A stretch of 64,000 bases of DNA, from contig JACRMM010000048.1 in the NCBI GenBank assembly GCA_016214985.1, positions 1-64,000 on the forward strand. The letters are read 5' to 3'. Below, one piece after another: positions 11,852 to 62,396 of this stretch. The position numbers were made by a program, and so were the translations under genes. Source of the stretch: Deltaproteobacteria bacterium. Its GTDB lineage: Bacteria; Desulfobacterota; Deferrisomatia; Deferrisomatales; JACRMM01. Within the stretch, counting starts at the first letter, position 1. Each line of letters begins with the position of its first letter. A model generated the notes under the pieces. The model did no database searches. It was not told where the DNA came from and worked only from the letters and a program-made list of their open reading frames with translations.

Positions 11852-12964
11852 CTAGGCGTCCTTGTCTCCGGCCGTGACAAACCACGACACCTGCCGGTGC
11901 CACGGTTGGGGGAAGAAGGTCTGGAGCACGCCGTCCGGCCGGCGGCGGACGAACCCGGCCCGAGCCAGGACGGCGGCGTACGGGTGGCCCTCGCCGAGTC
12001 GGATCCGCACGCTCGACAGTGCCGAGTTGCGCAAGAGCAACCGACGCAGGGCCGCTGCCCCCGGCGCCACGTCTTCAATCTCGTCGAAAAGCAGGTCGCT
12101 CACCGAGCAGGAGCCCGCAGCCTCGTCGAGGGCGCACACGAAGTAGCCCACCGGCGCGCCACGCCGGGTCACCGAGGCGACCTGACACCGCCCCACCGGC
12201 GCTGCTTCGTACCGCCAGCGCAGGGCGGCCGCGCTCCGGTCCCGGACCACAAGACCGCCCTTGGGGAACCGGTCCCAACATACCCCGAGGGCGTCCCCAA
12301 TCCGACCTACCCAGGTCGCCTCGTAGCCGCCACGGAGGTCCGGCCGGCCGATCGCCAATCGCTGGGCCGTGCGGGCCAACCGGCCGAGCACCTGCCCCGC
12401 CCTTTCTCCGGCGAACCGCCGAAGGTAGGTCTCGGGCCGGAGCACTAGGACCTGGGGCACGAAGCGGAGCGCCGTAGTCCACCCGGCGGCCTCGAGACTC
12501 CGCCGCGCCGCGTCGTTGGGGATGACGAAGCAGTTCCGGCCTACCCGCTCCCGGACGTGCTCGTTCACGAACCGAAACAGGCGGGCTGCCAAACCCTGTC
12601 CCCGATATTCCGAGTCGACGGAGATGTCGCCCAGCACCCCCAGCGCCTCTTGCCGGCCGTCCACCCAATAGGGCCGGAAAGCCAAACCCGCCACACCGAT
12701 CGGTTCTCCGCCTGCCCTGCGTGCCCAGAAGAGGAGCGACTCCTGCTCGACGGTTCCCCCGAGATAGCGCCAATCCATGTGCTCCCGCGTCCGGGGCGTG
12801 GAGCGGTTCCGATTGTGCACACGCAGCAGGTCCTCTGCCGTTCCGGCGTCGTAGCCGGAGCATGAGAATTCGATCTCACCGGTTGCCGGTTCCGAGTTCC
12901 CAGTTCCGGATTCCCAGTTCCGGGTTCCCAGACCCGAGTTTGCGGAACCGAGCTTCGTCCTCAT
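11852..12964 (-). CDS. GNAT-family N-acetyltransferase with repeat-encoded N-terminus
   Basis: A 370-residue protein. Residues about 30-170 carry a GNAT fold: 'EDLLRVHNRNRSTPRTREH' at the start, then 'LGDISVDSEYRGQGLAARL', which holds the acetyl-CoA-binding R/Q-G-x-G-x-A motif. The second half (about 200-350) resembles another GNAT-like lobe. Residues about 6-30 (SGLGTRNWESGTGNSE) are simply the translation of a heptamer array, so the original gene probably began nearer to 'IEFSCSGYDAG'. The ATG at 12964 overlaps a copy of the preceding formyltransferase tail (ATGA), copying the coupling at the true 3' end of that gene. It probably acetylates a sugar or sugar-nucleotide. Confidence 0.75.
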   Translation of the reverse strand: MRTKLGSANSGLGTRNWESGTGNSEPATGEIEFSCSGYDAGTAEDLLRVHNRNRSTPRTREHMDWRYLGGTVEQESLLFWARRAGGEPIGVAGLAFRPYWVDGRQEALGVLGDISVDSEYRGQGLAARLFRFVNEHVRERVGRNCFVIPNDAARRSLEAAGWTTALRFVPQVLVLRPETYLRRFAGERAGQVLGRLARTAQRLAIGRPDLRGGYEATWVGRIGDALGVCWDRFPKGGLVVRDRSAAALRWRYEAAPVGRCQVASVTRRGAPVGYFVCALDEAAGSCSVSDLLFDEIEDVAPGAAALRRLLLRNSALSSVRIRLGEGHPYAAVLARAGFVRRRPDGVLQTFFPQPWHRQVSWFVTAGDKDA

Positions 12965-13366
12965 AGGAGGCGTCGTCCCTGAGCCCTCAGCTGCTCCGCG
13001 TGCTCCCGGCGGGGCAAGGTGAAGTAGCTCCCCTCTGCTCCGATCTTCCGGCACTTCCGAGTGCCGGGTTCCGGGTTCCGGGTTCCGAGGGGCATCCTCA
13101 CGGAAGCCTCCGACCTTGCGCTCTGAGCTGCGCGGCGTGCTCTCAACGAGGGCTCTGCCTGTAGATCCCTGTTCCGGGTTCCCAGTTCCAGGGTTCCCAG
13201 TTTAGGGTCCAGAGTTCGTAGGTCGCAGGTTGCATATGCGGAATCCGACCTCATAGGAGCCTCCGACCCCGTAAACCCTTGTTCCGGGTTCCCAGTTCCG
13301 AGTTCCCAGTTCCCAGTTTCGGGTCCAGAGTTCGTGGTTCGCAGGTTGCGTATGCGGAATCCGACC
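12881..13366 (-). repeat. Nested repeat block: heptamer arrays alternating with copies of a gene junction
   Basis: Four heptamer arrays of the GTTCCGA/GTTCCCA type (about 12881-12940, 13051-13091, 13169-13203, 13280-13320) alternate with copies of the junction between the formyltransferase 3' end and the GNAT 5' end. The bases 13205-13270 and 13321-13386 form a near-identical direct repeat of about 65 bp (both contain GGGTCCAGAGTTCG and CCGACCTCATAGGAGCCTCC). A diverged copy of the formyltransferase tail lies at about 12961-13045 and another partial one at about 13095-13150. Confidence 0.85.
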
Positions 13367-14146
13367 TCATAGGAGCCTCCGTCCCTGCGCTCGGAGCTTT
13401 GCGGCGTGCTCGCGGCGAGGAAACGAAAAGTAGCTCCCCTCACCCTCCATCCTCCTGTATGTCACACTGCCCGACCGAAAATCCTCAATCACTCGGCAGA
13501 CGATTCGCGCCGCCTCGCGCTTCGAGCGAACGAAGACGTCTTGAAGACTCTCCGCGGTGCCGACGGGCATCGACGCCTGCGCGATGATGTCGCCTGTGTC
13601 GAGACCGATGTCGATCTTGTGCACCGTGATCCCCGTCTCCTTCTCCCCGCGGTAGAGCTGCCAGAAGTTGGGGAGCATCCCGCGGTACCTGGGCAGCGGC
13701 GCGCTGTGAACGTTGACGGCCCCCAGGCGAGGCAGACGGATCAGCTCTTCCCGAAAGATGACGGGAGACGCCACCGACACAAAGAGGTCTGGGTCGACGG
13801 CCTCGGCCGCCGCACGGAACTCCGGCGTGTTCAGGTCGCTTCGCTCCCAGCAGGGGATGCCGGCCGCGCAGACGGTCTGCTTCACCGTCGCGGGCCCGCC
13901 CCGCAGCACCGCCGGCAGGCGCGCCCGGAGCTTGACCCCCGCGTACCTCGTCCCCAGGCGAAGGAAATCGACGGGGCCGTAGAAGTCGTACATTCTTCGC
14001 GCGAGCTTCCCGACCGTGGCGTCGTTCATCGGTTTGGAGACGACGACGGCCTTGATCTCGTCCCTGCGAGGGAAGAGCGAGAAGAACTCTTCGAAGAAGA
14101 CCCTCACGTAGAAAGGGTCGTCTTGGGTGAAAAAGACCAAATTCAT
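13367..14146 (-). CDS. Formyltransferase family protein (methionyl-tRNA/sugar formyltransferase fold)
   Basis: A 259-residue protein with the N-terminal formyltransferase fold only. The hallmark segment is 'GAVNVHSAPLPRYRGMLP', with the catalytic N-x-H and the downstream 'TGITVHKIDIGLDTGDIIAQ' containing the active-site Asp. It lacks the tRNA-binding C-terminal domain of Fmt, so a sugar-nucleotide amine acceptor is more likely, as in ArnA- or VioF-like enzymes. It lies among glycosyltransferases in the XrtA locus. The ATG comes only two bases after a GTTCC heptamer array, so no normal ribosome-binding site is visible. Its last 25 or so codons occur again downstream in degenerate copies. Confidence 0.85.
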   Translation of the reverse strand: MNLVFFTQDDPFYVRVFFEEFFSLFPRRDEIKAVVVSKPMNDATVGKLARRMYDFYGPVDFLRLGTRYAGVKLRARLPAVLRGGPATVKQTVCAAGIPCWERSDLNTPEFRAAAEAVDPDLFVSVASPVIFREELIRLPRLGAVNVHSAPLPRYRGMLPNFWQLYRGEKETGITVHKIDIGLDTGDIIAQASMPVGTAESLQDVFVRSKREAARIVCRVIEDFRSGSVTYRRMEGEGSYFSFPRREHAAKLRAQGRRLL

Positions 14147-14148
14147 GT

Positions 14149-14212
14149 GCCGAGTTCCGAGTTCCGAGTTCCGAGTTCCGAGTTCCGGGTGCCGGGTGCC
14201 GGGTGCCGAGTG
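14149..14212 (-). repeat. Heptamer array, 3' side of four-helix-bundle cassette A
   Basis: Units of GTTCCGA on the plus strand repeat about five times and then change to GGGTGCC-type units. It lies between the four-helix-bundle gene A and the formyltransferase ATG. The opposite side of gene A (about 14633-14664) carries the reverse-complement unit (GGAAC-type), so the gene sits between inverted arrays. Confidence 0.85.
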
Positions 14213-14219
14213 CTGCAGG

Positions 14220-14585
14220 CTACTTCGGTTTAGGATTGTTTCTCAAATAGCGGAGGAAGCCGTTGAGCAAGCCTTTGACGTTGTCGCATCTCTCGCAAAG
14301 AACCTGGAACTGATTTCCGCTCAAATAGCCGAGGTCCAGGCCTACATAGCCGAGGCTCTTGACTTCCGCCGCGGAGCCCCGGGCCACGATCAGGAACTGC
14401 GAGAGCTCCCGTCGGCTTTCCCGGCCGAAGCCCTCTGCGATATTCGTCATCACCGAGACAGCGGCTCGCTGGATCTGGTCGCGAAAACCGAAGTCCCGGC
14501 TCTCGCGAAACGCACCGTAGACCTCTTTCACTAGTTCTCTGGCTTCCTTCCAGGAGTCCAGGTCTTCAAAGCGATCGATGCGCAT
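14220..14585 (-). CDS. Four-helix-bundle protein of the 23S rRNA intervening-sequence (S23) family, copy A
   Basis: A 121-residue all-helical protein. The family signature is at about residues 38-55 (QIQRAAVSVMTNIAEGFGR), preceded by 'DLDSWKEARELVKEVY' and followed by 'RGSAAEVKSLGYVGLDLGYL'. Relatives are encoded in intervening sequences of Leptospira and Coxiella 23S rRNA, and the Avd protein of diversity-generating retroelements belongs to the same fold. Function is unknown. It is the most diverged of three copies in this window. It is flanked by inverted GTTCC/GGAAC arrays and has been placed between the GT2 gene and the formyltransferase gene. Confidence 0.88.
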   Translation of the reverse strand: MRIDRFEDLDSWKEARELVKEVYGAFRESRDFGFRDQIQRAAVSVMTNIAEGFGRESRRELSQFLIVARGSAAEVKSLGYVGLDLGYLSGNQFQVLCERCDNVKGLLNGFLRYLRNNPKPK

Positions 14586-14587
14586 GT

Positions 14588-14664
14588 CTAATTCCGGCGC
14601 CGGGTACCGGTGATTGCGGTTTGCCGGTCAACTTGGAACATGGCACTCGGAACCTGGAACATTC
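14588..14664 (-). repeat. Degenerate heptamer array, 5' side of four-helix-bundle cassette A
   Basis: Contains CTTGGAACATGGCACTCGG and further GGAACCTGGAAC units, which are reverse complements of the GTTCC units at 14149-14212. It ends close to the stop codon of the GT2 gene. The array is more decayed than its partner. Confidence 0.6.
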
Positions 14665-14666
14665 AT

Positions 14667-15821
14667 TCACCTCTGCGTCTGCCACGTGACCACGTTGTAT
14701 CCTCGCAGGACACGGAACAAGCTCAAGAGCGATGCCAGGTTGACGACGCAGAAGTAGAGTGGCAGGGACAACACCTTCTTGTGAACCCCCCTACGCTCCA
14801 GGAGGAACCCCGCAGCAGCGAGCAGGTAGAAGAGAAGCTGCAAAACGAGGGTTCCGGCATAGAAGGCCGAATGCCTCCAGAGGATACTATTCGACAGGAG
14901 CGCTCCGATACTGAAGACGGGGACCAACCAGCGGAGCACCTTGTGGGAGAGGAGTTGCAGGGCCACGAACGGGTAGCGCAGCGGGTTCAAGAGATCCCGG
15001 ACGAAGAGGATCCCGTTCATGCCGCGGACGATCACCCGGATGCGCATCTTGAACTCGTCCTTGACCTTCTCGGTTGTGTCCTCAAAGGCCAGGGCGGCGG
15101 GCTCGAAGACGATACGCTTCCCCTTGCGAAGGATCGTCAGCGGCTCCACCAGATCACTGATGATCGTCGGCGGAAGCGGGTTGTAGAGGCTTCGCCGCAC
15201 GGAGTAGATGCACCCGCAGCAGCCCGTGATGGTGCGCACGCGGGTCTGGCGGCTCTTGATGAAGTTCTCGATATTCCAGAAGAGGATCGTAGCCGCACCC
15301 ACCGAGCCTCCGGTCTTGTTCACGTACGCGTAGCGGCCGCTCACGGCTCCCACCTCCGGGTCCGCATAGTTGCGCACCAGCGCGCACAGGACCCCTGGGT
15401 CGTAGAGAGACGCCGCGTCGGAAAAGACGACCACTTCGCCCTGACAGATCGCCACGGCACTGTTCTGGGCGGCGGTCTTGCCGAGGCGCCCTTCGACCCG
15501 GTGAAGCAGCACTCGGACACCCCGTTCGTTGTTCGCGAAGGAGCAGACGATGTCGTCCGTTCGGTCCGTGGAGCCGTCGGAGGCCACAACGATCTCGTAC
15601 CGGTCGGCCGGATAGTCGAGCTCCAGGGAGTTCCGGAGCTTCTCGGCAATGTCCTTCTCCTCGTTGTAGGCTGCGATGAGGAGGGAGACCTGGGGCTCGA
15701 TTGGCGCTGCCTTCACTTTCCGGTGCACGAAGGACGAGAGCATCGCGATCAGAAGCGGGTAGCCCACGTACGCATAGGCAATCAGGCCCACGGAGACCCA
15801 GAAGACGATCGCTGCCATCAC
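14667..15821 (-). CDS. Glycosyltransferase family 2 membrane protein
   Basis: A 384-residue processive-type GT2. One N-terminal membrane helix ('FWVSVGLIAYAYVGYPLL') precedes the GT-A domain with 'VSLLIAAYNEE', 'VVASDGSTDRT' (UDP-binding Asp), 'VVFSDAASLYD' (DxD-like region) and a GCCG-C region. 'RQTRVRTITGCCGCIYSVRR' and later R-rich acceptor motifs precede three or four C-terminal membrane helices. It should extend lipid-linked sugar at the inner membrane. Its ATG overlaps the preceding GT4 stop by four bases (ATGA), so the two are translationally coupled. Its stop lies a few bases from a repeat array. Confidence 0.9.
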   Translation of the reverse strand: MMAAIVFWVSVGLIAYAYVGYPLLIAMLSSFVHRKVKAAPIEPQVSLLIAAYNEEKDIAEKLRNSLELDYPADRYEIVVASDGSTDRTDDIVCSFANNERGVRVLLHRVEGRLGKTAAQNSAVAICQGEVVVFSDAASLYDPGVLCALVRNYADPEVGAVSGRYAYVNKTGGSVGAATILFWNIENFIKSRQTRVRTITGCCGCIYSVRRSLYNPLPPTIISDLVEPLTILRKGKRIVFEPAALAFEDTTEKVKDEFKMRIRVIVRGMNGILFVRDLLNPLRYPFVALQLLSHKVLRWLVPVFSIGALLSNSILWRHSAFYAGTLVLQLLFYLLAAAGFLLERRGVHKKVLSLPLYFCVVNLASLLSLFRVLRGYNVVTWQTQR

Positions 15822-19108: not shown

Positions 19109-19140
19109 CTTCCGAGTTCCGAGTTCCGAGTTCAAGGTTC
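19109..19140 (-). repeat. Heptamer array upstream of the exosortase gene
   Basis: Plus-strand units of GTTCCGA (CCGAGTTCCGAGTTCCGAG) repeat about three times between the PP-loop enzyme stop and the exosortase start. It is a solo array with no inverted partner nearby. Confidence 0.8.
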
Positions 19141-19153
19141 ATTCGGTTGACGG

Positions 19154-20211: not shown

Positions 20212-20287
20212 GAGTTCAGGTGAGTTCCCAGTTCCCAGTTCCCAGTTCAGGTTCCGAGTTCCGAGTTGCAGGTTTGCAGTTCCGGGT
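20212..20287 (-). repeat. Heptamer array between the PP-loop enzyme and the AMP ligase
   Basis: Units of GTTCCCA (three in a row) followed by GTTCCGA and GTTTGCA variants on the plus strand. It reaches the stop codon of the AMP ligase (20287). Solo array, same orientation throughout. Confidence 0.85.
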
Positions 20288-21858
20288 CACTTCAGATCGA
20301 CTTTCCGGATCTTGCCCGTATCGGTCTTCGGAAGCTCGTCCAGGAACTCGATCACCTGCGGAACCTTGTAGGCCGGGAGCTCTTTGCGGCAGTGCCGGAG
20401 GAGCTCCTTTTCGCCGCAGGAGGCGGCTACCTTGAGAACGACGCAGGCCTTGATCGCCTCTCCGAGGATGTCGTGGGGCACCCCGAGCACCGCGGCCTCG
20501 TGGACCGCGGGGTGCTCGAGGAGGACGTCTTCGATCTCCTTGGGCCCGACCCGGTGGGCCCCGCTCTTGATCAGCTCGCTCTTGCGGCTGACGATGTAGA
20601 GGTACCCCTCCTCGTCGACCGTCGCGAGGTCGCCGGTGCGCAGGCCCTCGGGCCCCAGGACCTCGGCGGTCGCCCCGGGCTGCCCCCAGTAGCCGGCCAT
20701 GAGGTTGGGGCCCCGGGCCACGATCTCCCCGACCTCGCCCACGCCCGCCGGCTCGCCCGAGGCCTTGAGGACACTGAGCGTGACGCCGGGGATCGCCTTG
20801 CCGATGGAGCCGGCCTTGCGCAGCAGATCCCCGGGGTCGAGATACGACAGGCGCGCCGACGCCTCGGTCTGTCCGTACATGATGTAGATCGCCGTGCCGG
20901 GCAGGACTTCGCGGACCTCTCGGGCCAGGCTCGGGGCCATGGCGCCGCCGGCCTGGGTCGCGTACCGCAGATCCGGGAAGCGGTAGTTGCGGATCGCCGA
21001 GCGGTGGAGCAGCAGGGCGTAGGTGGAGGGCACCCCCGAGAAGCCCGTAACGCGCTCCGCCTGCATCTGGTCCAGGACGACGTTGGGGTAGAGGAAGCTC
21101 TGGTTGACCACCAGAGTGCCCCCCACGGCCATGTGGGTGAGGAGCACGGAGTTCCCGTAGGAGTAGAAGAACGGGAGCACCGCCATGACCCGGTCCCGCT
21201 CCGTGAGCCGAAGATACTCCACGATGGAGGCCGTGTTGGCCACCAGATTCGAGTGGCGGAGCATGACACCCTTGGGCTCGCCGGTGGTTCCCGAGGTGTA
21301 GATGATCTGCGCGAGGTCTTCCGGGTTCCAGGTTCGGAGTTCCGAGTTCCGAGTTCCGAGTTCCGAATCAGGACATGGAACACGGAACCTGGAGTTGGGA
21401 ACAAGTTTCTCTCGGAGCACCTCTTCCAGGCTTGCGACGAACGCCGGTGCTCCCTCCAACCCGGATGTCCCTCCCGCCACGGCAAGGCGGCGGAGCGCGG
21501 GGGTTGTGGAGAGGATCGGCCCGACGTATTTCCAGAGTTTCCGGTGGGTGAACAGGCGTGAGACGCCGCAATCGTTCAGGATTCCGCCGAGGGTCCGCGC
21601 CGAGGTCTGGGTGTTCAGCGCGACGACGACTCCGCCGCTCAGGAGTGCCCCAAAATAGCAGGAAACATAATCCACCGGATCGTCGAGCAAGATACCTACG
21701 CGGTCACCCGGCTGGAGCCCGGCGGCGGCGAGCCAGCCCGCCACACCGCGCGCGGCGTCGGCGAGTTCCCGGTAGGTGATCCTCCGCCCGGCGGCGACGA
21801 TCGCCTCCTTATCGGGACACCGCCCGGCGGAACGCAGAAGGAAGTCGCAAACCATCAT
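20287..21858 (-). CDS. AMP-dependent acyl ligase (exosortase-A associated), with an in-frame repeat insertion
   Basis: A 523-residue ANL-superfamily enzyme that should activate a carboxylic acid as acyl-AMP and load it onto the adjacent carrier protein. It has 'YTSGTTGEPKG' (A3, residues 187-197), 'YGQTEAS' (A5), 'LRTGDLATVDEEGYLYIVSR' (A7/A8) and 'TDTGKIRK' with the catalytic Lys near residue 516. Residues about 152-178 (VPNSRFRVPCPDSELGTR and following) are the in-frame translation of a palindromic heptamer array placed just before the A3 loop. Homologues usually lack such an extension there. The start at 21858 or the next Met is supported by similarity at 'FLLRSAGRCPDKEAI'. Confidence 0.88.
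   Translation of the reverse strand: MMVCDFLLRSAGRCPDKEAIVAAGRRITYRELADAARGVAGWLAAAGLQPGDRVGILLDDPVDYVSCYFGALLSGGVVVALNTQTSARTLGGILNDCGVSRLFTHRKLWKYVGPILSTTPALRRLAVAGGTSGLEGAPAFVASLEEVLREKLVPNSRFRVPCPDSELGTRNSELRTWNPEDLAQIIYTSGTTGEPKGVMLRHSNLVANTASIVEYLRLTERDRVMAVLPFFYSYGNSVLLTHMAVGGTLVVNQSFLYPNVVLDQMQAERVTGFSGVPSTYALLLHRSAIRNYRFPDLRYATQAGGAMAPSLAREVREVLPGTAIYIMYGQTEASARLSYLDPGDLLRKAGSIGKAIPGVTLSVLKASGEPAGVGEVGEIVARGPNLMAGYWGQPGATAEVLGPEGLRTGDLATVDEEGYLYIVSRKSELIKSGAHRVGPKEIEDVLLEHPAVHEAAVLGVPHDILGEAIKACVVLKVAASCGEKELLRHCRKELPAYKVPQVIEFLDELPKTDTGKIRKVDLK
21323..21402 (-). repeat. Palindromic heptamer pair inside the AMP ligase reading frame
   Basis: Left arm 21323-21365 is GTTCC-type (GAGTTCCGAGTTCCGAG); right arm 21377-21402 is GGAAC-type. 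TCCAGGTTC in the left arm and GAACCTGGA in the right arm are perfect complements, so the RNA can form a hairpin with a loop of about eleven bases plus slack. No stop codon is introduced into the ligase frame. Confidence 0.85.
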
Positions 21859-24282: not shown

Positions 24283-25395
24283 TCAGAACGAGAAGTCCCT
24301 CAGCAACCGGGCGGGTCGACCCTCGGTCCTCGCCCGAGCGAGATCGCCGGCCTCGCGGCTGGGACGCTCGGGACACGACACGACGTCTCTCATTGAGGCA
24401 AATGCGAACTCTGTCAAGAGCCGGCGCAAGCGCGCCTCGGTCCGGTCCAGGTTCACATAGTGTCGGAATCTGCTCTTCAACCCAGCGCCGCAGATCCTTG
24501 GCTGTTTCGGGTCGATTTCCCAAGGATGCAGGTAGAAGACGAATGGGCGTCGGTCCGTCCGATTGATCCTCCGGAGGCCCCAGCGCGTCAGCCGGTACGG
24601 GAACAGACGGAAGTAGCCACCGCCGGCGATGGGGAAGTTTCTTCCCGCGAGCCGCAAAGTCGTAATGGGTATCTCCAACAACCTAGGCGGCTCGTGGGCG
24701 CTAGGCGGCTGGGCGGCTGGCGCGTTAGGCAGCAGGTCCGGATTGGGCCGCCTCGCCGCCTCGCCGCCTCGCTGCCCAACGTCCCCGCCTTCAGCGGGAA
24801 CCCAATTCCCCCCTTCCAACCTCTCCACGCGGAACGGAAACCTCGGCCAGTCGGGCAGGCCATAGAGGTCGTGGCGGATCGGGAAGACGCTCGAGTCGTA
24901 GACGTAGCCAGCCTCCAGGAGCTCGTCGAACGCCCAGAGAGTCAGGGCCGAGATCGAATAGCTCGGCGCCCGGTAGCCCAGGACCTGCTGCCCGCCGAGG
25001 TCTTCGAGGAGAACCTTCGCTCGGCGAACATCTTCTCGGAACTCCTCGCGCGTCTGGGTGTACACCCGCCGGTGTCCGTACCCGTGGCTCGCGATCTCGT
25101 GGCCCCCGGCCTCGATCTCCTTGACCAGACCGGGGCAACGCTCGGCCACCCAGCCGAGGACGAAGAACGTGGCCGTGACACCCTGCTCTGCGAGCATTGA
25201 GAGGATCTTACGCGTATTGGCTTCAACGCGAAGCTCCCTCCCATCCCAAGTATCCAGCGCCGAAACCGACTCAAACGCAGAAACGTGGAAATAATCTTCG
25301 ACGTCGATGGTAAGGGCGTTGACGATCGCCGGCGGCTGGGTGGTTGGGCGGCTGGGTCGAGACGCCGCTGGGCGGCTCGGCGGTCTGAGGTTCAC
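24283..25395 (-). CDS. Exosortase-A system polysaccharide deacetylase (NodB plus DUF3473-type), with in-frame repeat insertions
   Basis: A 370-residue deacetylase of the XrtA type. Signature segments: 'NALTIDVEDYFHVSAFE', 'TATFFVLGWVAERCP', 'EIASHGYGHRRV' (metal His pair), 'GYRAPSYSI', 'YDSSVFPIRHDLYG' and, after the domain end, 'IPITTLRLAGRNFPIAGGG' and 'FYLHPWEID'. Residues about 204-238 are a translated GC-rich repeat pair interrupting the normal link before 'LLEIPITT'. The N-terminal 23 or so residues (VNLRPPSRPAASRPSRP) are also repeat. The start is GTG at 25395, overlapping the four-helix-bundle B stop (GTGA). Homologues begin directly at 'NALTIDVEDYF'. Catalytic motifs are intact, so it may still work. 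Confidence 0.85.
   Translation of the reverse strand: MNLRPPSRPAASRPSRPTTQPPAIVNALTIDVEDYFHVSAFESVSALDTWDGRELRVEANTRKILSMLAEQGVTATFFVLGWVAERCPGLVKEIEAGGHEIASHGYGHRRVYTQTREEFREDVRRAKVLLEDLGGQQVLGYRAPSYSISALTLWAFDELLEAGYVYDSSVFPIRHDLYGLPDWPRFPFRVERLEGGNWVPAEGGDVGQRGGEAARRPNPDLLPNAPAAQPPSAHEPPRLLEIPITTLRLAGRNFPIAGGGYFRLFPYRLTRWGLRRINRTDRRPFVFYLHPWEIDPKQPRICGAGLKSRFRHYVNLDRTEARLRRLLTEFAFASMRDVVSCPERPSREAGDLARARTEGRPARLLRDFSF
24683..24783 (-). repeat. Palindromic octamer pair inside the deacetylase reading frame
   Basis: Left arm (about 24683-24722) carries AGGCGGCT/GGGCGGCT units; right arm (about 24747-24778) carries GCCGCCTC units. The arms are roughly complementary and the whole is translated without a stop as an Ala/Pro/Gly/Arg-rich insertion. 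Confidence 0.8.
25329..25387 (-). repeat. Octamer array, 3' side of four-helix-bundle cassette B
   Basis: Plus-strand GGCGGCTG/GGTGGTTG-type units, running into the deacetylase N-terminal codons on the minus strand. The opposite side of the cassette (25811-25836) holds the reverse-complement unit. Confidence 0.85.
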
Positions 25396-25757
25396 TTGGA
25401 CCTCACCGCCTGATAGAACGACCATAGTTTTGCGCCCACTCCATCGCTCGCCTGATCGAGGGCGACGTAGTCGTCCTGGCTCAGATATCCCAGGCTGTGG
25501 GCAAAGTGGAGTAGGTACTTAACCTCGGCTAACGATCCGATGCTGATGTTCAGGAACTGGATCAGCTCTTTCTCCCCTTTGCGTGAGTACCCTTCTACGA
25601 TGTTTGTGGGGACAGACAAAGCAGCACGCCTCAGCTGACCGGGGGTAAGGCCATAGCGCTCTTCTTTCGGAAACGTCTCGGCAGCCCGATACACGGTCCG
25701 CGCCAACCCATCCGAAAAACTCCAGACTTCGAGCTTCCGCCACCGTTCGTTCGCCAT
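25392..25757 (-). CDS. Four-helix-bundle protein of the 23S rRNA intervening-sequence (S23) family, copy B
   Basis: A 121-residue helical protein with the family core 'QLRRAALSVPTNIVEGYSRK' (about residues 42-61), 'FLNISIGSLAEVKYLLHFAH' and an N-terminal 'RKLEVWSFSDGLARTVY'. It is closely similar to copy C at 28.4 kb. It lies between inverted octamer arrays. Upstream, the second wecB copy stops being recognisable exactly at the array; downstream, its TGA overlaps the deacetylase GTG. It therefore occupies the place where the epimerase C-terminal half would be expected. Function unknown. Confidence 0.9.
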   Translation of the reverse strand: MANERWRKLEVWSFSDGLARTVYRAAETFPKEERYGLTPGQLRRAALSVPTNIVEGYSRKGEKELIQFLNISIGSLAEVKYLLHFAHSLGYLSQDDYVALDQASDGVGAKLWSFYQAVRSK

Positions 25758-25810: not shown

Positions 25811-25836
25811 AACCGCCCAACCGCCCAACCGCCCAA
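25811..25836 (-). repeat. Octamer array, 5' side of four-helix-bundle cassette B
   Basis: Three perfect units of AACCGCCC/CCGCCCAA on the plus strand, abutting the last recognisable codon of the broken wecB. It is inverted relative to 25329-25387. Confidence 0.9.
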
Positions 25837-28173: not shown

Positions 28174-28318
28174 TTAGAGAGCTGGAAAGCTCGGAAGCGG
28201 GAAAGCTCAAAACAGCTAGAAAGCGAGCCAGCTAGAAAGCTAGAAAGCTAAAAACAGCTCGCAAGCGAGCAAGTTAGAAACAGCTCAAAAGCTGGCATGT
28301 TAGAAAGCTCAAGACAGC
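28174..28318 (-). repeat. Degenerate octamer array, 3' side of four-helix-bundle cassette C
   Basis: Plus-strand units of GCTAGAAA/GCTGGAAA/GCTCAAAA type, with CAGCTAGAAAGCTAGAAAGC at the core. It runs from near the GspE-like start codon to about 90 bases short of gene C. It is inverted relative to the array at 28777-28887. Confidence 0.85.
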
Positions 28319-28410: not shown

Positions 28411-28776
28411 TCATACACTGCGAGCGATTTTGCCATAGAACGACCACAACATCCTGCCTAGTTCGTTGTATCGCCCTATCATTTCTTCATAGTCAACGTC
28501 ACATAGGTAGCCGATTCGGTGCACAAAATGCAACAAATACTTCACTTCAGCTAGTGAACCTAAGCTGATGTTCACAAAATGCCGGAGTTCTCGATCCCCT
28601 CTTCGTCCATATCCTTCTACGATATTCGTCGGAATCGACAACGCAGCCCGTCTCAGTTGGGACGTGGCGCCATACGCTTCTGCCCGTGGAAAGGATCGGG
28701 TGACTTCATAGACTCGACATGCGAGATCGTCAGCGACCCGCCAGACATCGAGCTTCACCCACCGATCCTGAATCAT
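28411..28776 (-). CDS. Four-helix-bundle protein of the 23S rRNA intervening-sequence (S23) family, copy C
   Basis: A 121-residue helical protein with 'VKLDVWRVADDLACRVYE' at the N-terminus, the core 'QLRRAALSIPTNIVEGYGRR', and 'FVNISLGSLAEVKYLLHFVH'. It is near-identical in layout to copy B and less like copy A. It is noticeably AT-richer than the neighbouring ATPase genes, which suggests recent arrival. Its ATG directly follows a TTTCC-type octamer array. The 90 bases behind its stop (28319-28410) are AT-rich and hold nothing recognisable. Confidence 0.9.
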   Translation of the reverse strand: MIQDRWVKLDVWRVADDLACRVYEVTRSFPRAEAYGATSQLRRAALSIPTNIVEGYGRRGDRELRHFVNISLGSLAEVKYLLHFVHRIGYLCDVDYEEMIGRYNELGRMLWSFYGKIARSV

Positions 28777-28887
28777 GCTTCCAGCTTCCTAGCTTTCCAT
28801 CTTTCCAGCTTCCTAGCTTTCCATCTTTCCAGCTTTCCATCTTTCCAGCTTTCCAGCCTCCTAGCCTCCTAGCCTCCTAGCTTCCTC
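28777..28887 (-). repeat. Octamer array, 5' side of four-helix-bundle cassette C
   Basis: Plus-strand units CTTTCCAG, CTTTCCAT and TAGCTTCC, then TAGCCTCC three times (CTAGCCTCCTAGCCTCCTAG). The ExeA-like ATPase stop codon (28861-28863) lies inside it, so the last residues of that protein (EEARRLGG) are repeat-encoded. Confidence 0.9.
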
Positions 28888-30501
28888 GCCTCTCTCAACA
28901 AACGTCCCAAAAAACGCCTCGTACTGCTTCTTCACCCCTTCGATTACCCGCAGGAGATCCGCCGTCAGGTGTTCCATGGCGTCGCGATGTGTGGTGAAGG
29001 AACCGGCGCGCCCGTTGGGCTTTTCCAGGAAGTAATTGGCGCCGGCGGCGAAGATCCGTCTCCTCAGGGTGGAGAGATCCAGGTCGCTCAGGTAGATGCG
29101 GGGCACGTGGGGGAGCTCCTCGGAGATCCGCGCGACCCTCTCCACATTGGACGAGTCGTCCTGCTCGGCGCCCAGTACCGCCACCGTGAACCACCCCGAA
29201 CGGCTGCCGTCTCGGAGGGCCTCGGAAAAGGCTCGATAGTCCCGGTGGACCTCGGCGTCGATCCGGCTCGCCTCGAAGGCCTCGGCCAGGGCATTCTGAA
29301 TTCGAGGGTCCGGGTCGTAGGCGTGCACCCGCAGGGCAGGGAAGCGGACCGCGCCGCCCACGGTCTCTCTCCGCACCCGCTCGAGCTGATCCAGGCGCTT
29401 CTTCCACTCGCCCTTGAGCTGGGTCACGCGCTCCCTGAACTCCTCCTCGCGCTTTTCGACATCGGCGACCCGGCGCGCCACCTCGAGCTCGCGGGACCTC
29501 AGGTCGCCCTCCTTCTTGGCGAGGTACCCCGCTCTCTCGGCCGTGCGACCCGGTCCAGGTCCGGGGACCGGCTCCCGGACCGCCTGAACCGTCACGGAGT
29601 CGAACCGCGCCTCAAGGGCGGCAACCTTCGCCCGAAGCTCTGCGTCCGCGTCTCGGGTCGCCGGCTCCGGGGGCGGCGCCTTCCCCTGCTGGTCCCGGGA
29701 GATCTGCGCCGCGACCTCAGCCACGATCGCATCGCCGATGATCCGCGTCTCGGCCACGTAGGCGTGAAGGAGCGCCGCATCACACAAGACGTTGATGAGG
29801 CGAGGAATGCCGCCGGTGGCCACGTGGATCGCGGGAATCACCTCCTCGGGGAAGACCGGCGCCTTCTCGGGATCCCGGCATACTTTGGAGAGGCGGTGGC
29901 GGACGTACTCGGCGACCTCCCCCGGCGTAAGGGCCCCCAGGTGATACCGGACCGTGGTGCGCTGCCGCAACTGCTCGAGCTCCGGGGACTCGATGAGGGT
30001 TCGCAGCCCCGGCTGTCCCACGAGGATGATGTGGAGGAGCTTCGCCTTCTCAGTCTCGAGGTTCGAGAGCATCCGCACGCCCTCGAGGCTCGACACGCCC
30101 AGGTCTTGCGCCTCGTCCACGAGGAGCACGCAGCTTCGCCCCTCGCGGAACCGCTCGATCAGGAAGTCGTTCAGGTTGGAGAGGAGAGAGGCCGTGCCGA
30201 GCCCCTCGGCGGTGAGCCCGAAATCTCGGAGGATCAGCTCAAGAAGCTCTTTGTAGGACACGTGGGTGTTGGTGACCTGGCTCAGCACCACGTTGTCCCC
30301 GAGGTTCGCGATCAGCGCGCGAAGCAGCGTCGTCTTCCCGGAGCCAACCTCTCCCGTGATCATGACGAACCCGCTCTTCGCCTCCACCCCGTACGTCAGG
30401 TGCGCCAACGCCTCCCGGTGCCCCCGGCTCAGGTACAGGAAGTCCGGGTCCGGCGTCAGGTTGAACGGCTTTTCGGAAAGGTCGAAGAACTTACGGTACA
30501 T
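28861..30501 (-). CDS. ExeA-like AAA ATPase of the exosortase-A locus, with a C-terminal receiver-like domain
   Basis: A 546-residue protein. Residues 1-270 form the ExeA/GspA-type ATPase: 'MYRKFFDLSEKPFNLTPDP', Walker A 'GEVGSGKTT' (50-58), Walker B 'CVLLVDEAQD' (124-133) and 'LVGQPGLR'. A long charged coiled coil spans about 290-395. Residues about 400-520 look like a response-regulator-type fold ('LRVHAYDPDPRIQNALAEAF', then 'FLEKP' near the end), but the phospho-acceptor position reads VAVLGAE, without the Asp. It probably organises the export machinery. The start at 30501 matches the family; the frame upstream is repeat sequence. The C-terminus ends within an octamer array. Confidence 0.87.
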   Translation of the reverse strand: MYRKFFDLSEKPFNLTPDPDFLYLSRGHREALAHLTYGVEAKSGFVMITGEVGSGKTTLLRALIANLGDNVVLSQVTNTHVSYKELLELILRDFGLTAEGLGTASLLSNLNDFLIERFREGRSCVLLVDEAQDLGVSSLEGVRMLSNLETEKAKLLHIILVGQPGLRTLIESPELEQLRQRTTVRYHLGALTPGEVAEYVRHRLSKVCRDPEKAPVFPEEVIPAIHVATGGIPRLINVLCDAALLHAYVAETRIIGDAIVAEVAAQISRDQQGKAPPPEPATRDADAELRAKVAALEARFDSVTVQAVREPVPGPGPGRTAERAGYLAKKEGDLRSRELEVARRVADVEKREEEFRERVTQLKGEWKKRLDQLERVRRETVGGAVRFPALRVHAYDPDPRIQNALAEAFEASRIDAEVHRDYRAFSEALRDGSRSGWFTVAVLGAEQDDSSNVERVARISEELPHVPRIYLSDLDLSTLRRRIFAAGANYFLEKPNGRAGSFTTHRDAMEHLTADLLRVIEGVKKQYEAFFGTFVERGEEARRLGG

Positions 30502-30508
30502 AAGAGTT

Positions 30509-30536
30509 CCCAGTTCAGGGTTCCGACTTCCCAGTT
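30509..30536 (-). repeat. Short heptamer array upstream of the ExeA-like ATPase
   Basis: Plus-strand GTTCCCA and GTTCCGA-like units directly before the first copy of the 57-bp element. Confidence 0.65.
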
Positions 30537-30593
30537 TATCCCCAGGATGGGGTGTATCCCGCGGGCCCATGGACGGGCAGGAGCGGGGCCCAG
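30537..30593. repeat. 57-bp dispersed element, copy 1
   Basis: Starts TATCCCCAGGATGGGG and ends GGGGCCCAG. The same 57 bases occur at 32381-32437 with a single mismatch. Internal complementarity (CCCC/GGGG and two GGGCCC hexamers) allows two small hairpins. It is embedded between a heptamer and an octamer array. Confidence 0.9.
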
Positions 30594-32232: not shown

Positions 32233-32283
32233 AACCCCGAATCAGATCTCGGTGCGTTGCTCTCATGATCGCTTCCTCGCTGT

Positions 32284-32380
32284 TTCCGGGTTCCCAGTTC
32301 CCAGTTCCCAGTTCCCAGTTCCCAGTTCCGAGTTCTAGGATCCAGCATCCTAGCTTCCTAGCTTCCCAGCTTCCTAGCCT
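32284..32380 (-). repeat. Heptamer array followed by octamer array
   Basis: GTTCCCA repeats five times with one GTTCCGA (32284-32337); then TAGCTTCC/CAGCTTCC units (32347-32380) lead into the second 57-bp element. Confidence 0.9.
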
Positions 32381-32437
32381 TATCCCCAGGATGGGGTGTA
32401 TCCCGCGGGCCCACGGACGGGCAGGAGCGGGGCCCAG
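32381..32437. repeat. 57-bp dispersed element, copy 2
   Basis: Identical to 30537-30593 except for one C/T difference at the GGGCCCAYGG position. It is followed by CCTCCCAGCTTTCTAGC, in which the TAG stop of the tyrosine kinase gene lies. Confidence 0.9.
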
Positions 32438-52168: not shown

Positions 52169-52226
52169 CGGGCGACGACCCCGGACGCGGGGTTCCCCTG
52201 ACACGCGATGCGGGAGAAGAGCGAAC

Positions 52227-54437
52227 ATGGCCAAGAGTCGCTTCGCCGACGTGACGAGCCCGCTCGGGCCGGGCGCTCTCCTGTTGCGCCGGATGGTCGC
52301 CCGGGAGGCCCTCGGTCGCCTCTTCGAGTTCGAGCTGGACCTGCTCAGCCAGGACGAGGCCGTTCCCTTCGACGATGTCCTGGGTCAGGGCATGACCGTG
52401 TCGGTCGAGTTGCCCGGGGGAGCCCGCCGTACCTTCCACGGCGTGGTCAGCCAGTTCGCCCAGACCGGGCGGGTCGGCAGCTATGCCGCCTACCGCGCCG
52501 TTCTGCGCCCCTGGCTGTGGTTCCTGACGCGCGTGGCCGACTGCCGCATCTTCCAGGAGAAGAAGGTTCCCGAAATCATCAAGGAGGTCTTCCGAGCGCA
52601 CGGCTTCACCGACTTTGACGAGGCACTCAGCGGGTCCTACCGAACGTGGGACTACTGCGTCCAGTACCGGGAGACCGACTTCAACTTCGTGACCCGCCTG
52701 ATGGAGCACGAGGGGATCTACTACTACTTCAAGCACGAGGCGGGCAAGCACACCCTCGTCCTCGCCGACTCCTACAGCTCCCACAGCGCGACCCCGGGGT
52801 ATGAGACGGTGCCCTACTATCCCCCATCCAAGAACGTGGTGCGCGAAACAGACCACGTGTTCGAGTGGAACGTGGTGCGGGAGCTCCAGCCCGGCTCGGT
52901 CGCCCTTACCGATTTCGACTTCGAAAAGCCGCGGGCCGGACTCGCGACAAAGTCGTCGGTGCAGCGCAAGCACGCCCAGGCCGCCTTCGAGGTGTACGAC
53001 TACCCGGGCGACTACCTGACGACCGCCGACGGCGATACGTACGCGCGGGCGCGCGTCGAGGAACTGCAAGCGCGGTTCGAACAAGCCACGGGCCGCGGCA
53101 CGGCGCGGGGCCTCACCCCCGGGGGGCTCTTTCGGCTCACCGACTACCCCCGGCAGGACCAGAACCGGGAGTACCTCGTCGTCTCCGCCAGCCACGAGCT
53201 GACCGCAGAGGAGTACGAAACCGGGAAGCGTGCCGGGGCAGGCCCGAGCCACACCTGCACGTTCTCGGCGATTGACAGCCGGCAGGCGTACCGTTCCCCG
53301 CGGGTGACACCCAAACCGGTGGTCCAGGGGCCCCAGACCGCGATCGTGGTGGGCAAGGCGGGGGAGGAGATCTGGACGGACAAGTACGGCCGTGTCAAGG
53401 TGCAGTTTCACTGGGACCGCGAGGGCAAGAACGACGAGAAGAGCTCCTGCTGGGTGCGAGTGGCCCAGGTGTGGGCGGGCAAGAACTGGGGCGCCATGCA
53501 CATTCCCCGGATCGGACAGGAGGTGATCGTCGACTTCCTGGAGGGCGACCCGGACCACCCGATCATCACCGGCCGCGTGTACAACGCCGACAACATGCCG
53601 CCGTACGGCCTCCCGGACAACGCGACCCAAAGCGGGATCCAGAGCCGAAGCTCCAAGCAGGGCGGCAGCGACAACTTCAACGAGATCCGCTTCGAGGACA
53701 AGAAGGGCGAGGAGGAGCTCTACATCCACGCCGAGCGAAACCGGACGATCGTCGTCGAAGCGGACGAGAACCACTCGGTGGGCGCCTCCCGCACGAGAAC
53801 CGTGGGCACCACGGAGTCGGTGACGATCGGTACCGACCGGACCAAGGACGTCGGGGCCAACGAAACCGAGACGATCGCGGCCAACAAGACGATCTCCGTG
53901 GGGGCGAACCACGACGAGACCATCGCGGCCAACATGGACCTCACGGTGGGTGCCAACCAGACCGCCACGGTCGGCGCGAACCAGACCGTCACGGTCGGCG
54001 CTGCGGCCAACCACACCGTCGGCGGGCCGATGACGCTCACGGTCGGCGGACCCTTGAAGATCCAGTCCGCCTCCGAGAGCAACGTGAAGTTCGGCGCCTT
54101 TGTCGAGCACACCTTCGGGCTGAAGTACGAGACCATCGGCGGCGTCAAAGCCGAGGCGGTGGGCGGTACCAAGTTGGAGGCCTTCGCCGGCCTCCAGGTC
54201 TCGGTGGCGGCCGGGGCCAAGATCGAGAAGGGGCCGATGAAGGTGCTCTTTGCCGAAGCATTCGAGGTCAAGTCGACGAGCGTGAAGATCACCGCCCCCT
54301 CGATCAAGCTTTCCTCAGGGGGCGCGTCGATCACGCTCAAGGGCGGCACGGTCACAATCAAAGGGGGGAGCATCAAGATCGACGGCAGCACGAAGTTCAC
54401 GAAGGACATCAAGGCCCCGAACTTCAAGAAAGACTAG
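52227..54437 (+). CDS. vgrG: Type VI secretion VgrG spike protein, copy 1
   Basis: A 736-residue VgrG that forms the tip of the type VI secretion tube. The gp27-like part opens with 'LGPGALLLRRMVAREALGRLFEFELDL' features and 'MEHEGIYYYFKHE'. The gp5-like OB fold is at about 380-460 ('EIWTDKYGRVKVQFHWDREG', 'WAGKNWGAMHIPRIGQEVIVDF'). From about 510 to 605 the spike has eight-residue repeats of the TVGANQT type, followed by a unique C-terminal strand-rich part (about 610-736) with no recognisable effector domain. It heads the cluster with the DUF2169 gene 17 bases downstream. N-terminal parts are almost identical to copy 2. Confidence 0.95.
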   Translation: MAKSRFADVTSPLGPGALLLRRMVAREALGRLFEFELDLLSQDEAVPFDDVLGQGMTVSVELPGGARRTFHGVVSQFAQTGRVGSYAAYRAVLRPWLWFLTRVADCRIFQEKKVPEIIKEVFRAHGFTDFDEALSGSYRTWDYCVQYRETDFNFVTRLMEHEGIYYYFKHEAGKHTLVLADSYSSHSATPGYETVPYYPPSKNVVRETDHVFEWNVVRELQPGSVALTDFDFEKPRAGLATKSSVQRKHAQAAFEVYDYPGDYLTTADGDTYARARVEELQARFEQATGRGTARGLTPGGLFRLTDYPRQDQNREYLVVSASHELTAEEYETGKRAGAGPSHTCTFSAIDSRQAYRSPRVTPKPVVQGPQTAIVVGKAGEEIWTDKYGRVKVQFHWDREGKNDEKSSCWVRVAQVWAGKNWGAMHIPRIGQEVIVDFLEGDPDHPIITGRVYNADNMPPYGLPDNATQSGIQSRSSKQGGSDNFNEIRFEDKKGEEELYIHAERNRTIVVEADENHSVGASRTRTVGTTESVTIGTDRTKDVGANETETIAANKTISVGANHDETIAANMDLTVGANQTATVGANQTVTVGAAANHTVGGPMTLTVGGPLKIQSASESNVKFGAFVEHTFGLKYETIGGVKAEAVGGTKLEAFAGLQVSVAAGAKIEKGPMKVLFAEAFEVKSTSVKITAPSIKLSSGGASITLKGGTVTIKGGSIKIDGSTKFTKDIKAPNFKKD

Positions 54438-60212: not shown

Positions 60213-60269
60213 CGTTCTTGTTTCACGGACGCGAGCGCGGCTACGCGGGAATCTGGGAGGACGGCCGGC

Positions 60270-62396
60270 ATGGCCAAGAGTCGATTCGCGGACGTGAAGA
60301 GCCCGCTCGGGCCGAATGCGCTCCTGTTGCGCCGGATGGTGGCCCGGGAATCCCTCGGCCGGCTCTTCGAGTTTGAGCTGGACCTGCTCAGCCGAGACGA
60401 GTCCCTGTCCTTCGACGATGTCCTGGGGCAAGAGATGGCCGTATCGGTCGAACTGCCCGGGGGCGCCCGGCGCCCCTTTCACGGCGTGGTCAGCCAGTTT
60501 GCCCAGACCGGGCGGGTCGGCAGCTACGCCGCCTACCGCGCCGTGCTTCGACCCTGGCTGTGGTTCCTCACGCGAGCGGCCGACTGCCGCATCTTCCAGG
60601 AAAAGACCGTCCCCGACATCATCAAGGAGGTCTTCCGGACCCACGGTTTCACCGACTTCGACCAGACACTCAATGGCTCGTACCGGACCTGGGACTACTG
60701 CGTCCAGTACCGGGAAACCGATTTCGATTTCGTGAGCCGCCTGATGGAGCACGAGGGGATATATTACTTTTTCAAGCACGAGGCGGCCAAGCACACCCTC
60801 GTACTCGCCGACTCCTACAGTTCCCACAGCACGATCCCCGGGTACGAGACGGTGCCGTACTACCCTCCGTCGGAGAACGCGGTGCGCGAGACCGACCACG
60901 TCTTCGAGTGGAACGTGGCGCGCGAGCTCCAGCCCGGCGCGGTCGCCCTTACCGATTTCGACTTCGAAAAGCCGCGGGCCGGGCTCGCGACCAAGTCGTC
61001 GGTGCAGCGCAAACACGCCCAGGCCGCTTTCGAGGTGTACGACTACCCGGGCGACTATTTGACGACCGCCCACGGCGACGCCTACGCGCGGGCGCGCGTC
61101 GAGGAGCTCCAGGCGCAGTTCGAGCTGGCCACGGGCCGCGGCACGGCGCGCGGCGTCACGGCCGGGGGGCTGTTTCGGCTCACGGACTACCCCCGGCAGG
61201 ACCAGAACCGCGAGTACCTCATCGTCTCCGCCAGCCACCAGGTGACCTCGGAGGAGTACGAGACCGGGGGAGGCTCGGGAGCGGGGCCGAGCTACGCCTG
61301 CACGTTCTCGGCGATCCAGAGCCGGCAGGCCTATCGCTCCCCGCGTGTGACACCCAAGCCGGTGGTCCAGGGGCCCCAGACGGCAATCGTCGTGGGCAAG
61401 GCGGGGGAGGAGATCTGGACCGACAAGTACGGCCGGGTCAAGGTGCAGTTCCACTGGGACCGCGAGGGCAAGAACGACGAGAAGAGCTCCTGCTGGGTGC
61501 GCGTGGCCCAGGTGTGGGCGGGCAAGAACTGGGGCGCCATGCACATTCCCCGGATCGGCCAGGAAGTGATCGTCGACTTCCTGGAGGGCGACCCTGACCG
61601 CCCGATCGTCACGGGCCGCGTGTACAACGCCGACGAGATGCCGCCCTACGAACTGCCCGCCAACCAGACCCAGAGCGGGATCAAGAGCCGGAGCACCAAG
61701 CAGGGCGGCACGGAGAACTTCAACGAGATCCGGTTCGAAGACAAGAAGGGCGAGGAGCTCCTGACCATCCACGCGGAGAAGAACCAAGACATCAGCGTGG
61801 AGAACGACGAAACCCACTCCGTAGGGCACGACCGGAAGAAGACGGTCGGAAACGACGAGACCACCGACGTCAAGGCCAACCGCACGGAGTCGGTTGGGAA
61901 GAACGAGTCGATCACCATCGGCGAGAACCGCACCGAGAGCGTCGGTAAGGACGAAACCATCACGATCGACGGGAATCGCACGGAGAGTGTCGCGAAGGAC
62001 GAAACCATCACGATCAGCGGGAACCGCACTGAAGACGTCACCAAGGACGAAACCATCACGATCAACGGAAAACGCACCGAGACCGTGGCCAAGGACGAAT
62101 CGATCACCATCAGCGGGAACCGGACGAAAGGCGTCTCCAAAGACGACACTCTGAACGTCGGGGGAAAACGGACGAGCAGCGTAGACAAGGATGACCTGCT
62201 GACGGTGGGGAAGAACCTCGCGGTTCAAGCCGGAGACGAGATCGTGCTGCAGGTCGGCGACGCAAGCATCACCATGAAGAAGGACGGCACGATCCAGATC
62301 AAGGGCAAGGACATCACCGTCGAGGGCTCGGGCAAGATCAACGCCAAGGCTTCGTCCGACATCGTCATGAAGGGCAGCAAGATCCTTCAGAACTAG
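60270..62396 (+). CDS. vgrG: Type VI secretion VgrG spike protein, copy 2
   Basis: A 708-residue VgrG. Its first 490 or so residues nearly copy vgrG copy 1 (same 'MAKSRFADV' start, same 'WTDKYGRVKVQFHWDREG' OB fold). The spike region from about 510 to 650 differs: it is built of 16-residue units of the GNRTESVAKDETITIS type, at least six in a row. The end (about 650-708) has 'ASITMKKDGTIQIKGKDITV' needle strands and no fused effector. Upstream GGAGG lies nine bases before the ATG. It is followed three bases later by the DUF6484-like gene. Confidence 0.95.
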   Translation: MAKSRFADVKSPLGPNALLLRRMVARESLGRLFEFELDLLSRDESLSFDDVLGQEMAVSVELPGGARRPFHGVVSQFAQTGRVGSYAAYRAVLRPWLWFLTRAADCRIFQEKTVPDIIKEVFRTHGFTDFDQTLNGSYRTWDYCVQYRETDFDFVSRLMEHEGIYYFFKHEAAKHTLVLADSYSSHSTIPGYETVPYYPPSENAVRETDHVFEWNVARELQPGAVALTDFDFEKPRAGLATKSSVQRKHAQAAFEVYDYPGDYLTTAHGDAYARARVEELQAQFELATGRGTARGVTAGGLFRLTDYPRQDQNREYLIVSASHQVTSEEYETGGGSGAGPSYACTFSAIQSRQAYRSPRVTPKPVVQGPQTAIVVGKAGEEIWTDKYGRVKVQFHWDREGKNDEKSSCWVRVAQVWAGKNWGAMHIPRIGQEVIVDFLEGDPDRPIVTGRVYNADEMPPYELPANQTQSGIKSRSTKQGGTENFNEIRFEDKKGEELLTIHAEKNQDISVENDETHSVGHDRKKTVGNDETTDVKANRTESVGKNESITIGENRTESVGKDETITIDGNRTESVAKDETITISGNRTEDVTKDETITINGKRTETVAKDESITISGNRTKGVSKDDTLNVGGKRTSSVDKDDLLTVGKNLAVQAGDEIVLQVGDASITMKKDGTIQIKGKDITVEGSGKINAKASSDIVMKGSKILQN
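61830..62215 (+). repeat. 48-bp coding repeat in vgrG copy 2
   Basis: The 16-residue unit (N/K-R-T-E-x-V-x-K-D-E-(T/S)-I-T-I-x-G) is repeated at DNA level; ACGAAACCATCACGATC recurs every 48 bases. The first and last units are degenerate. Confidence 0.85.

Follow-up and report, generated by a model that had tools for sequence, protein, structure and literature searches.

Background

In a 64,000-nucleotide stretch of the genome of a Deltaproteobacteria bacterium of the phylum Desulfobacterota (assembly GCA_016214985.1, contig JACRMM010000048.1, positions 1 to 64,000; hereafter the window), a formyltransferase gene (FT) and an acetyltransferase-type gene of the GNAT family meet on the minus strand in a shared ATGA, and this junction occurs several times over, interspersed with arrays of a 7-bp repeat. 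The window is part of the contig that we call C28, and the genome comprises 5.6 Mb in 72 contigs. How can the boundary between two genes become multiplied in this way, and why does GNAT begin in the copy farthest from FT? The reading that we favour, and consider fairly probable, is that the block is a gene junction which was hit by the repeat arm of an element carrying an intervening sequence protein (IVP) gene, and which was then multiplied. IVP genes, which encode the four-helix-bundle proteins of family PF05635, occur in many bacteria and are poorly understood.

Results

A gene junction in four copies

The end of FT with its ATGA is present four times on the minus strand (J1 to J4), alternating with arrays of the 7-bp unit GTTCCNN, as read on the plus strand, and Tandem Repeats Finder (TRF) reports one array after every junction copy. 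A preliminary description of the region, made from the letters alone, had spoken of up to four copies alternating with GTTCC arrays, and all four are indeed found where it had placed them. Aligned to J2, J3 and J4, the J1 end scored 35, 55 and 67, all above the maxima of 23, 26 and 25 obtained from 300 mononucleotide shuffles each, which preserve base composition only.

The four copies are not equivalent. J1 (13367-13441, minus strand) holds the functional FT end, EGSYF..RRLL* (EGSYFSFPRREHAAKLRAQGRRLL*), overlapping ATGA. We regard it as the true 3' end of FT (13367-14146, minus strand; PF00551, E 1.7e-22), since related enzymes have their C-terminus at a similar residue: 13 homologues among the matches listed end at about the J1 position. 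J2 (about 13249-13269) contains the last FT codons and ATGA only, and lies within a tandem duplication of part of J1. On the minus strand, the J1-side copy of this duplication (13276-13385) comprises the last FT codons, ATGA, a degenerate array and an array, and the second copy (13167-13269) includes J2 and its array. The near-identical direct repeat of 65 bp noticed earlier is this duplication, although its length had been underestimated: it extends over 77 nt at 94% identity with a spacing of 116 or, with gaps, over 110 columns at 88%. J3 (13098-13148, minus strand) is a diverged and decayed FT end (R*EHAAQLRAQGRRLP*) with an internal in-frame stop, and its TGA comes after an altered codon; an array at 13054-13088 (minus strand) separates it from J4. 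J4 (12961-13035, minus strand) is a complete, diverged FT end (EGSYFTLPRREHAEQLRAQGRRLL*), which retains 25 FT codons without an indel. Each copy has its own private substitutions, so that a simple assembly echo is unlikely.

The ATGA of J4 supplies the start of GNAT (11852-12964, minus strand; PF00583, E 1.7e-10), as had been proposed when the farthest copy was named as the active one. The ATG at 12964 is our reading of the start, backed by the ATGA overlap and by comparison with the closest relative (locus L167). The array that follows (12882-12940, minus strand) is read through as the GNAT N-terminus, with about 20 array-encoded residues after the start; the GNAT of L167 resembles it only from window residue 33 onwards, corresponding to residue 9 of the relative, in agreement with the N-terminus having been described as array-encoded.

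Origin of the junction copies

The preliminary description had attributed the amplification of the junction to slippage between arrays. If slippage or unequal crossing-over had acted alone, junction and array would have been amplified locally and the downstream copies would have decayed, and one would expect either near-identical copies or differences spread evenly over codon positions. This expectation fits J1 and J2, a clear tandem duplication with a period of 116; J2 has the appearance of a part of J1 that was duplicated locally. The few differences of J3 and J4 disfavour it there. J1 and J4 differ at codon positions 1, 2 and 3 by 4, 1 and 12 substitutions (12 of 17 at the third), J3 and J4 by 2, 2 and 12 (12 of 16), and J1 and J3 by 3, 1 and 7 (11 in total). 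Under a rough mixed model, in which the third-position share of 0.46 is our own approximate expectation, the excess at third positions has P values of 0.036, 0.018 and 0.19, respectively, in these small samples.

Dead local copies should change everywhere, and since the differences concentrate at third positions, J3 and J4 may be regarded as once-functional, diverged FT alleles; with moderate confidence, we read them as ends that belonged to other FT alleles and would have been left behind when FT was replaced. The excess between J3 and J4 is the more telling against pure slippage since neither is now used by FT. The unbroken run of FT codons in J4 points the same way, as does the position of the array that comes next upstream of the J1 segment: it precedes FT, so that a crossover there would copy the whole gene. 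In favour of slippage, the array seems to start at the same point in J1 and J4; it was therefore probably present before the copying. Tandem duplication thus seems to suit J2, and to suit J3 and J4 poorly: of the earlier claim, an array-associated multiplication and the local duplication of J2 stand, and we think it unlikely that slippage produced the entire block.

An IVP element beside the junction

The first account of the arrays was incomplete, as the same unit also flanks, in inverted orientation, an IVP gene on the far side of FT. This gene, IVP1 (14220-14585, minus strand; E 1.1e-30 to PF05635, the family of the 23S rRNA IVP), stands between a downstream arm, a GTTCCGA array that abuts the FT ATG (14147-14213, plus strand), and an upstream arm, an inverted GTTCC array where the glycosyltransferase gene GT2 ends (14630-14667, minus strand). 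The arms are complementary, with 38 nt at 76% against 14140-14177 and 31 nt at 81% against 14154-14184, and in a predicted RNA fold of the element they pair with each other and enclose the gene (z -3.71; none of 100 shuffles was as stable). By eye, ATGAAT stands on both sides of IVP1. The approximately 450 bases between the arms contain no transposase; their two open reading frames (ORFs) of at least 100 amino acids are the IVP gene and an opposite-strand ORF without a Pfam match.

The junction arrays share their unit with the arms of IVP1, and other gene boundaries of the genome also carry arrays of this unit. We propose that the overlapping junction of FT and GNAT would first have received an array of the IVP1-arm unit family, shortly behind the start codon of GNAT. 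Recombination involving the arrays would then have multiplied the segment made up of FT end, start codon and array, and an incoming FT copy would have replaced the old one, whose 3' ends may have remained as J3 and J4. GNAT would now begin in the relic J4 and read through its array.

The genome has six IVP (PF05635) matches. IVP2, the second in the window (28411-28776, minus strand), has octamer arrays downstream (28175-28309, plus strand) and upstream (28776-28892, plus strand), the latter inverted relative to the former. IVP3, the third (25392-25757, minus strand), has a short GC-rich octamer array upstream (25811-25836), and its other side is weak. Solo GTTCC arrays, all on the plus strand, lie at a gene junction with ATG on both sides by eye (19109-19143), between two genes (20224-20251 and 32283-32345) and inside the open ORF (20287-21858) of an AMP-binding enzyme (21318-21366). 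From their units and closeness we infer that they may derive from IVP elements, perhaps as array-only derivatives. In contigs C27 and C28, judged from rough ORFs, solo arrays seemed to keep one orientation relative to transcription, but this was rejected as a rule, at least one site elsewhere (L057) being opposite and others unclear.

Relatives without the block

The genes of the locus follow one another on the minus strand as GT4 (17191-15818), a glycosyltransferase, GT2 (15821-14667), a second glycosyltransferase, the IVP gene, FT, GNAT and a polysaccharide deacetylase fused to a glycosyltransferase. A search with FT in 395 genomes of the phylum returned only three besides the window's own at E <= 1e-55, and none of the 395 provided a relative close enough for dating J3 and J4. 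In genome G086, of the same phylum, GT4, GT2, FT and GNAT occur in the window's order (FT 53-54% and GNAT 36% identical). The single junction that the preliminary description had suggested looking for in relatives is found there, with the FT stop at 2292 and the GNAT GTG at 2295; in this 3.8-kb locus TRF detected no tandem repeat, and no match to the window IVP was found. In G012 (FT 44% identical), an ATGA overlap joins GT2 to FT, and the gene after FT is a deacetylase; no IVP match was found, nor any array at the GT2/FT/deacetylase junctions, the two TRF rows both lying within GT2. Because neither genome has an IVP match or junction arrays, the arrays look like additions, as do the IVP gene and the extra junctions, even though the two genomes are distant relatives.

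Survey of IVP loci

At least one IVP match is present in 87 of 148 genomes in a sample of the phylum. We compared 96 IVP loci: 6 from the window's own genome, 30 that the search supplied and 60 hand-picked among the matches listed, a choice that is not random, as it left out contig-end places and some others, and in which lower-scoring IVP genes are under-represented. Three loci (L086, L098 and L148) were dropped for an incomplete flank, and in the remaining 93, from 50 genomes, the 150-bp upstream flank was scored against the reverse-complemented downstream flank. The mean score was 39.6, against 16.0 for mismatched loci (standard deviation 0.45, maximum 17.1, 200 permutations) and 20.9 for the same-strand comparison. 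A score of at least 29, a cut-off picked after the data had been seen, for which reason the threshold-free means are also given, was reached by 69 of the 93 loci and by 1 of 82 control pairs taken about 900 bp away; mismatched pairs reached it in 11 of 144 cases within a genome and in 2.2% of 8412 cases between genomes. Similarly, arrays were detected in 60 of 94 upstream and 66 of 95 downstream flanks, as opposed to 5 of 88 and 4 of 90 about 900 bp away, and their unit was 7 bp long in 42 of the 60 and 49 of the 66. The two arms of one element match, while the elements of one genome mostly differ in unit.

Inverted arms recur in 43 of the 50 genomes and, as described below, in complete plasmids. 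This argues, together with the private substitutions of each junction copy, against the block being an artefact of a draft assembly. Arrays are hard to assemble, and the genome, besides its 72 contigs, has a contamination estimate of 5.26%; even so, we hold an artefact to be highly improbable.

Filled and empty sites on plasmids

A protein search of 72,556 plasmids yielded an IVP match in 22, of which 16 are cyanobacterial by genus name. Inverted arms were recognised in 9 of the first 13 plasmid loci, by score in L154, L157, L158, L159, L160, L162, L165 and L166 and by eye in L164. In an operon of Nostoc plasmids the element occupies one gene boundary in L154 and the neighbouring boundary in L164, L176 and L177, and neither of the two is filled in L173 and L178. 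At a third boundary of this operon, empty in L154, L173 carries a short piece with inverted arms and without an IVP gene (784-922). At the L154 site a start codon stands, by eye, on both sides of the insert. Further sites are filled in one record and empty in another. L162 has an element within a type III CRISPR operon, where PCC 7002 (L170) has none; L158 has one between ribonucleotide reductase genes, a site that is vacant in L172; and the element of L159, which follows an integrase gene, is missing from L171 and L174. These cases suggest insertion as a plain reason for the presence of the elements.

A candidate empty site between cas6 and cas4 was rejected, since the Dolichospermum plasmid L169 has another insert with inverted ends there. 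At this site L166, from an Anabaena sp. 90 plasmid, carries the IVP element and L169 the different insert, with both sides 98-99% identical. In L161, from a Pseudanabaena galeata plasmid, an IVP gene likewise lies between cas6 and cas4, with long direct arrays of the AAAGCTA type.

The flanks of the insertions bear on the idea that each array insertion copied the whole junction as a very long target-site duplication and left both genes intact. Some sites do show a stretch of start or stop codon on both sides, of about 3-7 bases by eye. The duplications at the plasmid sites are, however, at most about 7 bases long, against about 75 needed, and the array boundary apparently shared by J1 and J4 would place the array before the copying; this origin appears very improbable to us.

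The arrays could also be regulatory sites before start codons, as proposed for the TAACTGA repeats of Beggiatoaceae, with only an incidental link to IVP genes. Several arrays do stand directly before start codons, and translational control was suggested by MacGregor 2015 (PMC4679880). A regulatory role would leave unexplained the paired inverted arrays around IVP genes with units mostly differing between loci, the arrays within coding sequence and the filled and empty sites, and we judge it improbable.

Effects on the reading frame

As the unit is 7 bp long, adding or losing a single unit would put GNAT into another frame. Units of this length, which is not a multiple of three, also lie within coding sequence in two tandem frames of contig C27 (L052, 13152-14462 and 15299-16993), each of which joins a PIN domain to a DegT-family aminotransferase (PF01041). 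Both frames contain a GTTCC array at the same coding position, with surrounding blocks that are 90-91% identical and another at 81%. In one copy the aminotransferase frame stays open through the array, and its match extends to the end of the profile; in the other the match is confined to the part preceding the array, and the coding sequence goes on in a different frame. By analogy with these copies, GNAT may be open to frame switching.

Further repeats

A dispersed repeat of about 50-85 bp, 84-92% identical between copies, occurs in the window (30521-30593 and 32363-32437), in L057 (9944-10028) and in L051 (13967-14014), and its window copies adjoin short-unit arrays. The window also contains a direct repeat of about 1.56 kb (52226-53783 and 60269-61827) at 88% identity.

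Discussion

Several observations weigh against the proposed history of the block and the wider role of IVP elements. The replacement of FT alleles is reconstructed from just 17, 16 and 11 differences, the IVP origin of the junction array is deduced from matching units and closeness, and for the window itself there is no filled and empty pair at close distance. In the survey, 24 of the 93 loci fall under the cut-off, 4 of them with direct rather than inverted arrays. The window's own genome passes at 4 of its 6 loci, IVP1 with a score of just 32; L049 fails (19), as does IVP2 (24), whose downstream arm lies mostly beyond the 150-bp flank and was seen in a separate comparison. Among the first 13 plasmid loci, L155 and L161 have direct arrays and L156 and L163 no clear inverted arms. 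The target duplications are short and partly due to the start codon that every gene needs, and no clear duplication was found at L162, L158 and L159.

The closest known counterpart of the elements is the intervening sequence (IVS) of 23S rRNA genes. The 23S rRNA IVS of Coxiella burnetii contains an S23/IVP ORF, has inverted-repeat ends that form a 28-bp stem, and carries before the S23p start three tandem heptamers whose number varies between strains (PMC4990558, in part). ORFs for IVP are also reported within insertions of the 16S and 23S rRNA genes of bacteria of the candidate phyla radiation (CPR) (PMC11270868, in part). The elements studied here resemble an IVS in encoding a PF05635 protein, as IVP1 and the other matches of the genome do, and in having complementary ends around the ORF, as seen in the fold of IVP1 and in the loci above the cut-off. 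They differ in position, since the IVS, according to the portions of this literature considered here, lies inside the 23S rRNA precursor and is excised by RNase III, whereas the present elements lie between or inside protein genes; in addition, both of their arms are heptamer or octamer arrays with a mostly element-specific unit. A location in rRNA was rejected: no rRNA match was found in the window or in the 20 of the 96 IVP loci that were scanned (one tRNA only), and for this reason we do not file the elements as IVS. They look like relatives of the IVS outside rRNA.

Short-unit arrays have been described in several genomes, among them the heptamer arrays of Xanthomonas and Nostoc (PMC4692102) and the heptamer and octamer sites of Geobacter metallireducens, which include pairs on opposite strands (PMC2700814); regulation was proposed for the repeats of Beggiatoaceae (PMC4679880) and Geobacter (PMC2700814). 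As far as the relevant portions of these papers go, all of these repeats are, like ours, tandem arrays of 7-8 bp that are scattered over the genome, intergenic and in some cases coding. In the same portions of PMC4692102, PMC4679880 and PMC2700814, searched with words that differed by paper, no mention of intervening sequences, S23 or four-helix bundles was found.

For the PF05635-like protein XCC0516 there is a solved structure, 2gsc. We take its prefix to stand for Xanthomonas campestris pv. campestris, the strain group of the Xanthomonas heptamer-array paper. In the literature searched, mainly openly accessible and without bioRxiv preprints, no paper among the matches listed linked IVP genes to flanking heptamer arrays outside rRNA.

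Two further kinds of element invite comparison. The Avd protein of diversity-generating retroelements resembles PF05635 and acts in retrohoming with a reverse transcriptase (PMC10053308, in part). The present elements differ in that no reverse transcriptase was found inside them, and 49 of the 87 IVP-bearing genomes have no match to PF00078. Presence of IVP and of reverse transcriptase shows no significant link (38 genomes with both, 49 with IVP only, 19 with reverse transcriptase only and 42 with neither; n=148, P 0.17). A reverse transcriptase-driven element was rejected for this genome, as its only PF00078 match (C28:86372-86995) sits among group II intron matches. These surround it in C28:84001-88494 (L055), with another intron match on the opposite strand, and the terminal 141 bases of C28 are 98.6% identical to a segment close to the end of C27. 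Miniature inverted-repeat transposable elements (MITEs) are similar in being short, with inverted ends and no enzyme gene, as in the short piece of L173; the arms here are tandem arrays with changing units and not a fixed terminal inverted repeat.

Taking the junction, the survey and the plasmids together, we offer a wider proposal that is tentative and leans slightly to the side of doubt. IVP genes may mark a large and so far unrecognised class of bacterial mobile elements, whose ends would be inverted arrays of a 7-8 bp unit. Since this unit changes between elements and yet agrees at the two ends of each, the ends would have to be rewritten jointly, perhaps with each move. Heptamer arrays that have been left unexplained could be their footprints, the IVS of rRNA genes would be one special insertion, and links to CRISPR would reflect hitchhiking, while arrays at gene boundaries might serve as gene-swap sites of operons and leave scars such as J3 and J4.

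If this is true, a single origin would account for the short-unit repeat arrays for which several genome papers gave no explanation, and the uncharacterised family PF05635 would be the mark of a mobile element. The presence of IVP genes beside CRISPR and other operons would then be explained without a functional link, and repeat arrays at gene boundaries would offer polysaccharide operons a way to swap genes and switch frames.

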